A stretch of DNA of 64,000 nt from an uncultured Flavobacteriales bacterium (GTDB taxonomy: Bacteria; Bacteroidota; Bacteroidia; CAIKAF01): assembly GCA_903837495.1 (NCBI GenBank), contig CAILUT010000056.1, positions 62,001 to 126,000 of the forward strand, read 5' to 3'. The position numbers and the translations under genes were made by a program. Below the pieces are notes generated by a model, which worked only from the letters and a program-made list of their open reading frames with translations, did not search any database and was not told the origin of the DNA. Shown one piece after another: positions 53,459 to 64,000 of the stretch (position 1 is the first letter of the stretch; each line of letters starts with the position of its first letter).

Positions 53459-53794
53459 TTACACGTTGTCTTCCCCCAATACCCTTAATTTTAGGGTCGA
53501 AGGGCAGTGCTCCGGGCGCAATTGACAACTTAAACGCGAGGTGTCCGTTAATACCGGAAGGCTTTCAAGCATATCCAATTCTTCGTTTCCGGCCTCAGGC
53601 AGCTCAGAATATCCTTCCAAAACCTCAACATGGCAGGTGGCACACAAGGCCATGCCTCCGCAAGTAGCCAAAATAGGGAATCCTTCTCCCTTTAATACCT
53701 CCATCAACGATAGCCCCATATCGGTGGGCACTTCCACATTCATGGTTCTTCCGCTCAGGTCTTCCGCTTGCAGTTCAATATGCGAATTGGCCAT
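53459..53794 (-). CDS. 2Fe-2S ferredoxin, adrenodoxin type
   Basis: A 111-residue electron carrier. The cluster ligands are Cys45, Cys51, Cys54 (CGGMALCATC) and Cys90 (LSC), with the CX5CX2C...C spacing of ISC/adrenodoxin-type ferredoxins. It starts 3 bp after the stop of the oxidoreductase at 53798, which is its likely reductase. Confidence 0.92.
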   Translation of the reverse strand: MANSHIELQAEDLSGRTMNVEVPTDMGLSLMEVLKGEGFPILATCGGMALCATCHVEVLEGYSELPEAGNEELDMLESLPVLTDTSRLSCQLRPEHCPSTLKLRVLGEDNV

Positions 53795-53797
53795 GCT

Positions 53798-54814
53798 TTA
53801 AAAGGCGTTTACCCCGTTTACCGTGGTGTATTTAAAACTTAACTTCTGCTCTGGAAATACCCGAGCAAAGGCCGATTGTGCCATAAGGGCAGCTTCATGA
53901 AAACCGCATAAAATTAATTTCAATTTGCCGGGATAGGTGTTGATATCGCCAATCGCGTATATGCCTTCCACATTGGTGCTGTAGTCCTCTGTATTTACTA
54001 GAATGGCGTTTTTGTCAATGTTTAAACCCCAATCGGCAATGGGACCTAGTTTGGGAGTCAATCCAAAAAGCGGGATGAAAAAATCGGTTTTGATATCTAG
54101 GTCTGATTCCTGTCCTGCTTCCCGTACCATTAATCCTTCAAGTTGTGTTGAGCCATGCAAAGACTGAACTTCCGCATTTAAAATTAAATTTATTTTCCCT
54201 GCTTGAGCCAAATCAAATACCTTTTCGGCACTTTCGGGCGCCCCCCTAAAGGAGCCACTTCGGTGTATAAGGGTTAATTCGGAACAAACATCCGACAAGA
54301 AAATGGCCCAATCTAAGGCCGAATCGCCGCCTCCGGCTAGAACTACTTTTTTATTCCTGAATTTTTCAGGGTCCAAAACCATGTAGGCAACTCCTTTGCC
54401 CTCGAAAACCTCTAAGTTTTCTACAACAGGCTTCCGGGGTTCAAAGCAACCCAAACCACCCGCAATTACAACAACTTTACTCTGGATTTTAGTGCCGGTT
54501 GACGTACTTATTTGATACCCTGTTTCTGTTTTATCTAGGCATTCTACCCGTTCGCCCAACGTAAATCCAGGTTTAAACGGTGCGATTTGCTCCATCAGGT
54601 TTTCAACCAGTTCCCCGGCCAATATAGAAGGGTAGCCTGGAATGTCGTAAATCGGCTTTTTGGGGTAAATTTCCGACAATTGGCCCCCTACTTGGGGCAG
54701 GGCATCTACCAAATGGCAACGCATTTTTAATAATCCCGCCTCAAAAACAGCAAATAAACCCACCGGTCCTGCGCCTACGATGCATAAATCGGTTTGAATG
54801 CTTTGGTTACTCAT
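53798..54814 (-). CDS. Ferredoxin--NADP reductase, thioredoxin-reductase-like
   Basis: A 338-residue FAD/NAD(P) enzyme. It has the FAD-binding LCIVGAGPVGLFAVFEAGLL, VGGQLSEIYPKKPIYDIPGYP, the NADPH-binding VVLAGGGDSALDWA and the C-terminal YAIGDINTYPGKLKLILCGFHEAALMA. There is no CxxC active site, which separates it from thioredoxin reductase. It is paired with the ferredoxin gene 3 bp downstream. TACCTTTA (54829-54822) ends 7 nt before the ATG. Confidence 0.92.
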   Translation of the reverse strand: MSNQSIQTDLCIVGAGPVGLFAVFEAGLLKMRCHLVDALPQVGGQLSEIYPKKPIYDIPGYPSILAGELVENLMEQIAPFKPGFTLGERVECLDKTETGYQISTSTGTKIQSKVVVIAGGLGCFEPRKPVVENLEVFEGKGVAYMVLDPEKFRNKKVVLAGGGDSALDWAIFLSDVCSELTLIHRSGSFRGAPESAEKVFDLAQAGKINLILNAEVQSLHGSTQLEGLMVREAGQESDLDIKTDFFIPLFGLTPKLGPIADWGLNIDKNAILVNTEDYSTNVEGIYAIGDINTYPGKLKLILCGFHEAALMAQSAFARVFPEQKLSFKYTTVNGVNAF

Positions 54815-54821
54815 ACGGCCA

Positions 54822-54829
54822 TAAAGGTA
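54822..54829 (-). promoter_or_regulatory. -7-like box for the ferredoxin reductase gene
   Basis: TACCTTTA on the minus strand (last base differs from consensus) ends 7 nt before ATG 54814, predicting a very short leader. Confidence 0.45.
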
Positions 54830-54867
54830 AGATGCCTAACAGAATGGATTGCGGTTTGTGCTTTATT

Positions 54868-55830
54868 TTAGCTCTTACCCGGAAGCTTTTTTCCGTCAAT
54901 CCGCTTAGAACCATATTTTACCTCTACCGGCACAGGACGTATGTTCCACACTATTCCAAACAAGGCTAAAGTTCTTAAAACGTAATAACTGGGGTCAAAC
55001 TCCCACCAATAAAAGCCTTGACGGCATGATCCTTGGTAATAGTGGTGGTTGTTGTGCCAACCTTCGCCCATGGTAATCAAGGCCAAAACCGCATTGTTCC
55101 GCGAATGGTCTTTGGTTTTGTACCGGCGACGCCCTATTTTATGCATCAACGAATTAATGGAAAACGTCCCATGATACAATATAACAGTGCTTGTTAAATA
55201 TCCCACCACCACAGTGGACCAACCGGCATTCCAATCCGTAATTCCATTTCCGTTGAGCAGATTGCCTACAAAATAAATGATAACGGCCATAATGATTGGA
55301 GGAACCATGAAATATCGATTCAGAAACCGCAACTCCGGATACTTAGCAAAATCCTGAATTAAGTCGTACCTGGTTTTTTGATAATCAGGCCCCATAATCC
55401 AACCAATATGGGCATAGAAAAAACCATAGATGTTCGCCGAATGGGGGTCGTGAGCTGTGTCGCTGTGGCGGTGGTGAACTCTGTGTTGAGATGCCCACCA
55501 CAAAGCTCCTTTCTGTATGCTGGTTTGGGCAAAAAAGGCAATCAAAAACTGGAAGAACCGACTTGTCTCGTACGTTTTGTGCGAAAAATACCGGTGGTAT
55601 CCGGCACTAACAAAAAACATGCGGAAGTAGTACATAAACAAACATACCAACCAATCTTTCCAGGTAAAACCGGACCAAATCATTAAAAGAGGTGTCAGGT
55701 GGATGAGCCCAAAACCATATTGGTCGATGAGCTTCGGTTGGTTGCGGTTTTCTTTTTTTACCGCTTCGGGTGGCGGGCCTTCTGGAGAGGTGTATAAGGA
55801 CTCAACAAGGGGTGTACTAGCTTCACTCAT
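54868..55830 (-). CDS. Acyl-CoA desaturase (delta-9 type)
   Basis: A 320-residue membrane di-iron desaturase. The three histidine boxes are HRYFSH (79-84), HRVHH (116-120) and HNNHH near residue 260. Hydrophobic segments cover about 40-75 and 165-225. It introduces a double bond into membrane fatty acids and needs electrons, which the adjacent ferredoxin and ferredoxin reductase could supply. TACCTTTG at 55874-55867 is its probable -7 box. Confidence 0.93.
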   Translation of the reverse strand: MSEASTPLVESLYTSPEGPPPEAVKKENRNQPKLIDQYGFGLIHLTPLLMIWSGFTWKDWLVCLFMYYFRMFFVSAGYHRYFSHKTYETSRFFQFLIAFFAQTSIQKGALWWASQHRVHHRHSDTAHDPHSANIYGFFYAHIGWIMGPDYQKTRYDLIQDFAKYPELRFLNRYFMVPPIIMAVIIYFVGNLLNGNGITDWNAGWSTVVVGYLTSTVILYHGTFSINSLMHKIGRRRYKTKDHSRNNAVLALITMGEGWHNNHHYYQGSCRQGFYWWEFDPSYYVLRTLALFGIVWNIRPVPVEVKYGSKRIDGKKLPGKS

Positions 55831-63342: not shown

Positions 63343-63350
63343 TAAGTTTG
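63343..63350 (+). promoter_or_regulatory. -7 box for the lipid methyltransferase gene
   Basis: TAAGTTTG fits TAnnTTTG, 21 nt before ATG 63372. It is divergent from rpsA. Confidence 0.55.
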
Positions 63351-63371: not shown

Positions 63372-64000
63372 ATGAGCAAATCTCCTTTAGATTTTATTGC
63401 AACAAAAACTCCGTCCGCAGGACGCAAATACGTTGCCGGAAAAAAAATTCCATTCTCTGAATTTATCCACGATTACGCCAACGGCGAAGTAGATATTGAA
63501 GGGGATTTCATTGAGTTTATGAACTGCCGAAACGAGGTGTTCGACTACCGTCTAACTTGGAAGCACATTAAATTCTTCTTCACCCGCATGATTCCCGAAG
63601 TGGCTAGCCACTCTAAAAGTCAGGACGAACGAATTGTGCGCGACCACTACGACCGCGGCAACGATTTTTTCTCCTCTTTCCTTGGACCACGTATGATTTA
63701 TACCTCTGGTTTCTGGAACGATGTGCCCAACGAAACGCTAGAGCAGGCGCAAGACCGTAAAATGACCATGGTCTGCGACAAACTGCTAATGAAACCCGGA
63801 AACAAGCACCTAGACATCGGTTGCGGTTGGGGTACTTTGGTGGCTTACGCCGCTAAATACTATGGCACTGATTCCACCGGCATTACCCTTGCTCAAGATG
63901 GCACCGACCACGGCAACAAGCAAATTGCCGCACACGGCGTTGCCGACCGTGCACGAATCTTGCGCATGGATTACCGCGACATGATTACCCCAGGTAAAAA
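63372..64000 (+). CDS. CFA/sphingolipid C9-methyltransferase-like SAM enzyme, 3' end outside the window
   Basis: The frame is open to the window edge (209 codons seen). It has the cyclopropane-fatty-acid synthase layout: VRDHYDRGNDFFSSFLGPRMIYTSG (residues 89-113), LEQAQDRK (123-130) and SAM motif I LDIGCGWGTL (147-156). GPRMIYTSG, GITLAQDGTDHGN and ILRMDYRD look more like eukaryotic sphingolipid C9-methyltransferases than standard bacterial CFA synthases. Bacteroidota make sphingolipids, so a sphingolipid substrate is possible. The rest of the gene must be read to decide. Confidence 0.88.
   Translation, partial: MSKSPLDFIATKTPSAGRKYVAGKKIPFSEFIHDYANGEVDIEGDFIEFMNCRNEVFDYRLTWKHIKFFFTRMIPEVASHSKSQDERIVRDHYDRGNDFFSSFLGPRMIYTSGFWNDVPNETLEQAQDRKMTMVCDKLLMKPGNKHLDIGCGWGTLVAYAAKYYGTDSTGITLAQDGTDHGNKQIAAHGVADRARILRMDYRDMITPGK

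Follow-up and report, generated by a model that had tools for sequence, protein, structure and literature searches.

An intact methyltransferase gene of an aquatic Bacteroidota bacterium represents a separate deep clade of the cyclopropane fatty acid synthase superfamily

The fungal sphingolipid C9-methyltransferase (EC 2.1.1.317), represented by NCU07859/scumbo of N. crassa, is a protein of 525 aa with two N-terminal transmembrane segments, and the C9-methylation of sphingoid bases, which matters for fungal growth, has been described as fungus-only (PMC9325734). Both this enzyme and the cyclopropane fatty acid synthases (CFAS) of bacteria are SAM methyltransferases of the CFAS superfamily. 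A methyltransferase (MTase) gene found in an aquatic Bacteroidota bacterium raises the question of which kind of lipid product, branched or cyclopropanated, and which lipid substrate such a bacterial gene serves. The window, which is the whole stretch of 64,000 nucleotides that was analysed, covers positions 62001-126000 of contig C56 of the whole assembly (G000).

The gene and its locus

The frame is open on the forward strand from an ATG at window position 63372 to the end of the window (63372..64000), and 209 residues fall within it. These belong to the 5' part, 209 codons out of 399, of a gene for a C9-methyltransferase-like lipid MTase of the CFAS superfamily, which is intact in the assembly at C56:125372-126571, with 399 residues and no internal stop, and which ends at window position 64571. 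The ATG at 63372 was preferred as the start to an upstream TTG at 63348 because the alignment of the relatives starts there. An earlier note on this DNA had quoted four peptides from the frame, and all four were found. The aligned part within the window comprises the motif GPRMIYTSG (residues 105-113, 63684..63710), in which Ser112 stands at the place of CFAS Cys139, and the clade segments GITLAQDGTDHGN (residues 170-182, 63879..63917) and ILRMDYRD (residues 196-203, 63957..63980); the SAM-binding motif LDIGCGWGT occupies residues 147-155 (63810..63836), and all of these lie on the forward strand.

The MTase gene stands alone. Its neighbours, identified by eye from the proteins they encode, are a divergent rpsA gene on one side and a convergent miaA gene on the other, and 3' of the MTase stop codon lies a terminator-like hairpin with a T run behind it, a combination of near chance frequency. 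The first five genes upstream are the same in the congener G001 (clusters 3-7, common to loci L002 and L123), and full-length orthologues with 85-96 % identity are present in five congeneric genomes. A chance open reading frame and eukaryotic contamination are both ruled out by the synteny with the congener and by these orthologues, so the frame named in the earlier note is a real gene.

An acyl desaturase gene (PF00487) lies 7.5 kb from the MTase gene on the reverse strand (54868..55830); it is a candidate only as a source of unsaturated chains, with a putative tie to the MTase. Viewed by eye, this gene adjoins genes for a ferredoxin and a ferredoxin-NADP reductase-like flavoprotein on the same strand (53459-55830), a group that resembles a self-contained electron supply for desaturation. 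A further PF00487 protein, by eye similar to AlkB-type alkane/fatty acid hydroxylases, is encoded 8 kb downstream of the MTase gene at L002:14327-15394.

Clade, fold and active site

The 209-residue part matches the Pfam CMAS model (PF02353) with an E value of 4.8e-36 and 124.9 bits, against a gathering score of 27. The best annotated matches of the MTase are CFAS, and it stays far under the NCBIfam CFAS cut-offs, reaching 182 of the 400 bits needed for the curated model NF008686. Identities are sharply bimodal, being 51-100 % within the clade and no higher than 37 % with CFAS relatives outside it. The MTase is 73-75 % identical in two further genera of its own family and absent from six of the 16 family genomes compared. 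Of 395 genomes sampled evenly across the phylum, 13 (the source genome included) carry a relative at 55-100 % identity, with the next best at no more than 37 %, and in the class sample 16 of 395 genomes carry one at 52-100 %. Its distribution is patchy within families, with carriers and non-carriers in each of families f10 and f45 and in genus g5, and the MTase of f87, a family of another class, is 65-67 % identical; the patchiness together with the latter identity suggests exchange of the gene between lineages.

A tree was constructed from 22 clade members, five structural references and 36 other CFAS-like sequences that come from Bacteroidota and plasmids. The MTase clade forms one side of a branch with 100/99 support, its stem measures 1.24 changes per site, and it consequently does not lie inside the CFAS clade; all CFAS sampled, among them the structural references, fall on the other side. 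The tree program flags a meeting of long branches that involves one distant group, a warning of which the unity of the clade is independent. The MTase is thus a SAM-dependent member of the CFAS superfamily in a separate deep Bacteroidota clade, previously unremarked, and the proposal of the earlier note that the gene encodes a lipid methyltransferase different from ordinary bacterial CFAS is borne out by the Pfam match and by the tree, in which a position inside the synthases would have spoken the other way.

Scans of viral contigs with queries from the family and from the wider clade retrieved CFAS-like relatives at about 30 % identity and not a single member of the clade. A tblastn search of a plasmid collection likewise gave only relatives below 60 % identity, the best 30 listed being 24-31 % identical. 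Either auxiliary genes or contamination from the host may account for the CFAS-like MTase genes on IMG/VR viral contigs (L137-L144 and L184-L190), which are about 30 % identical to the clade and, in L184-L190, 41-49 % identical to E. coli CFAS.

A predicted model of a 96 % identical orthologue, made from 23 aligned sequences, reached a pLDDT of 77.6; an earlier model from nine close sequences (pLDDT 54) was not usable. The predicted fold matches CFAS over both domains, with 7qos (A. aeolicus), 5z9o (L. acidophilus) and 6bqc (E. coli) as top matches and structural alignments at about 23-26 % identity, and the sequence and the model agree on the two-domain CFAS fold with its SAM motif. In CFAS, a bicarbonate held by Glu239, His266 and Tyr317, ligands which matter for activity, accepts the proton during cyclopropane formation (PMC11387697). 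The MTase shares the Glu and Tyr of this site with the three synthases (Glu224 and Tyr315) and differs from them in the His, so that the full set of bicarbonate ligands is absent. The 28 clade members examined all have this Glu and Tyr, and in 28 of 28 His266 is replaced by Gln (Gln251), Ile268 by Ala (Ala253) and Cys139 by Ser, Gly or Thr, whereas His266 is retained in all five structural references. Among 43 CFAS-like sequences of uncharacterised product outside the clade, 14 also have Gln in place of His, and the change is therefore no proof of methyl branching. Conserved in the clade, as in the fungal C9-methyltransferase, is the EHV of the methyltransferase domain (PMC9325734). Read from sequence, the active-site replacements suggest a methyl-branch product instead of a cyclopropane, as in C9-methyltransferases, and C9-methyltransferase-like chemistry is plausible for the MTase.

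The explanation considered best, and held with somewhat better than even confidence, is that the MTase, a member of a CFAS-superfamily clade of its own in Bacteroidota, is a SAM-dependent lipid C-methyltransferase that is associated with the membrane and makes a mid-chain methyl branch. The small N-terminal domain would offer the catalytic domain a long, unsaturated chain from a membrane lipid, and the C=C of this chain would then attack the methyl group of SAM. The resulting cation would lose a proton without the bicarbonate base of a true CFAS, and would give a mid-chain methyl branch and no cyclopropane. The double bond would come from the desaturases that travel with the MTase gene. The same lipid would also be the substrate of a CrtISO/RetSat-like FAD oxidoreductase and of an Scs7-like 2-hydroxylase.

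Accompanying genes and candidate lipids

Partner genes were compared within the family between ten MTase-positive and six MTase-negative genomes. The CrtISO/RetSat-like FAD oxidoreductase occurs in 10/10 of the former and 0/6 of the latter, a pair of PF00487 desaturases in 9/10 and 0/6, and an Scs7-like fatty-acid 2-hydroxylase at an identity of at least 47 % in 10/10 and 0/6. Fisher p values range from 1e-4 to 9e-4 with the kinship of the genomes ignored. Two MTase-negative family genomes carry an Scs7-like hydroxylase at 42-44 % identity, and if these are counted as present the p value for this partner is 0.008, kinship again ignored. In genus g5, two genomes have all four genes and two have none. 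The co-occurring desaturase pair is missing from the assembly that contains the window, through either loss or an assembly gap, and other desaturases are present there.

Adjacency was also observed. A desaturase gene adjoins the MTase gene in three genomes (G001, G004 and G013), as does a 33 % identical desaturase homologue in a genome of another family (G667), and the FAD oxidoreductase gene adjoins the desaturase gene in three genera. The Scs7-like hydroxylase gene, whose best PDB match is yeast Scs7, a ceramide fatty acid hydroxylase (1e-31), lies directly upstream of the MTase gene in two genomes of family f45 (G531 and G622). The FAD oxidoreductase was not found outside the family, and the gene module is for this reason not universal to the MTase clade. 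In the source genome, the Scs7-like hydroxylase gene adjoins genes for a Blh-like carotenoid dioxygenase and a microbial rhodopsin (L182, G000:C59, 92-2293), neighbours from which, read by eye, the organism may use light.

The lipid on which the MTase would act was approached through the acyltransferases that begin the candidate pathways. With the curated model for serine palmitoyltransferase (SPT), NF047600, and its cut-off of 640 bits, none of the 16 family genomes, the source genome included, contains an SPT; the best score in the source genome is 358 bits, from a glycine C-acetyltransferase (Kbl). The branched sphingoid base that the earlier note had envisaged as a product, and for which it had named the SPT of the genome as a check, is accordingly not supported in this organism; the MTase also has no N-terminal transmembrane pair. 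A true sphingolipid substrate is unlikely here because the genome has no SPT. An orphan alpha-oxoamine synthase (AOS) gene on contig C17 (L075) was considered as a hidden SPT and rejected, being 33-35 % identical to true SPTs against 37-38 % to Kbl, below all SPT cut-offs and retained in the MTase-negative genomes G009 and G015, and so not linked to the MTase. The AOS of contig C17 (L124:9174-10559, reverse strand) has an N-terminal extension of 60 residues and is conserved in genera g1, g4 and g5.

The source genome contains a homologue of SulA/cysteate acyltransferase (CFAT) on contig C42 (L076:1429-2679, reverse strand), beside a BamD-like gene. It scores 589 bits to 7u7h and 576 to 28eh, a cysteate acyltransferase, against 234 to SPT, and it retains Lys281 in the context AKSLPMP, a Lys that separates SulA from SPT (PMC9304779). 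From this homology and its diagnostic Lys, the organism probably makes sulfonolipids, which are structural analogues of ceramide phosphate. A sulfonolipid base is a candidate substrate of the MTase, and so, equally, are the acyl chains of phospholipids.

The first of the competing explanations is a more specific form of the preferred one, in which the MTase acts on the long-chain base of a capnine-type sulfonolipid. SulA would form 3-ketocapnine, the desaturases would add double bonds, the MTase would methylate one of them, by analogy with the action of fungal C9-methyltransferases on ceramide, and the Scs7-like enzyme would hydroxylate the N-acyl chain. The SulA homologue with its diagnostic Lys agrees with this route, as do the ceramide-hydroxylase-like Scs7 homologues, which lie beside the MTase gene in f45 and are present in all ten MTase-positive family genomes; against it, Scs7-like PF04116 enzymes are common, and MTase-negative family genomes, too, contain AOS genes whose scores with the SPT model (about 275-294 bits) are like that of the SulA homologue, so that SulA is not specific to MTase carriers. 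The SulA/CapB pathway as described contains no methyltransferase. The route is put forward tentatively, as a possibility with well under an even chance of being correct.

A second explanation looks to the synthesis of furan fatty acids, in which UfaM, a CFAS-like cis-vaccenate 11-methyltransferase, has other, oxidative enzymes as its partners and yields an unsaturated chain with an 11-methyl group (PMC12089945). UfaM and the MTase are both CFAS-like, the two being likened here by description, and from the FAD oxidoreductase and desaturases that accompany the MTase, as oxidative enzymes accompany UfaM, one might imagine a counterpart of UfaM/UfaD/UfaO that acts on phospholipids and is of the furan- or 10-methyl-fatty-acid type. 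The partners of the MTase are of the FA_desaturase and CrtISO-like types, however, and its oxidoreductase is nearest to carotenoid isomerases and desaturases, yet below every cut-off, which leaves this pathway doubtful.

It is unlikely that the MTase is an ordinary cyclopropane fatty acid synthase of unusual sequence, as its best annotated matches, its CFAS fold with the N-terminal domain and its Glu and Tyr ligands might suggest, given the deep separate clade, the shortfall against the CFAS model and the replacement of all three active-site residues throughout the clade. Most improbable is a genuine sphingolipid C9-methyltransferase that makes 9-methyl sphingoid bases: the clade is separate from CFAS, the GPRMIYTSG-type motifs presumably resemble those of fungal C9-methyltransferases, the Scs7-like hydroxylase and the desaturases that accompany the MTase are reminiscent of the glucosylceramide route of fungi, and one carrier outside the family (G634 of f114, L168 9060-10286, MTase 65-66 % identical) has a canonical SPT of 684.8 bits, but that genome is the only SPT-bearing carrier among those tested, and the MTase is shorter than the fungal enzyme (399 against 525 residues), has no transmembrane pair (the highest 19-residue hydropathy in the first 110 residues is 0.28) and resides in a bacterial host without SPT. 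The absence of these segments and of a sphingolipid-making host is the reason that the MTase is not filed as a fungal-type C9-methyltransferase. For the question of true sphingolipid C9-methylation, G634 is the best genome.

Implications for Bacteroidota lipids

The MTase is a real, intact and unusual bacterial variant of a known superfamily, and a sphingolipid role in its own organism is disfavoured. A bolder reading, to which a low probability is assigned, is that Bacteroidota are the bacterial sister or the source of the fungal C9-methyltransferase and that in this lineage the MTase methylates a sulfonolipid base to give methyl-branched capnines. If this were true, the desaturase, the C-methyltransferase and the Scs7-like 2-hydroxylase would together decorate a sulfonate backbone, in a bacterial counterpart of the route by which fungi decorate glucosylceramide, and the enzyme of G634, the sole carrier with an SPT, could act on true sphingolipids. 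A grouping of the clade with the fungal enzymes would point to the origin of C9-methylation chemistry.

As a single gene whose product has no membrane segments, the MTase offers a model for the question of branch versus ring among CFAS relatives, and on the preferred explanation, a lipid C-methyltransferase that makes a mid-chain methyl branch, aquatic Bacteroidota are predicted to contain a methyl-branched lipid not yet described.
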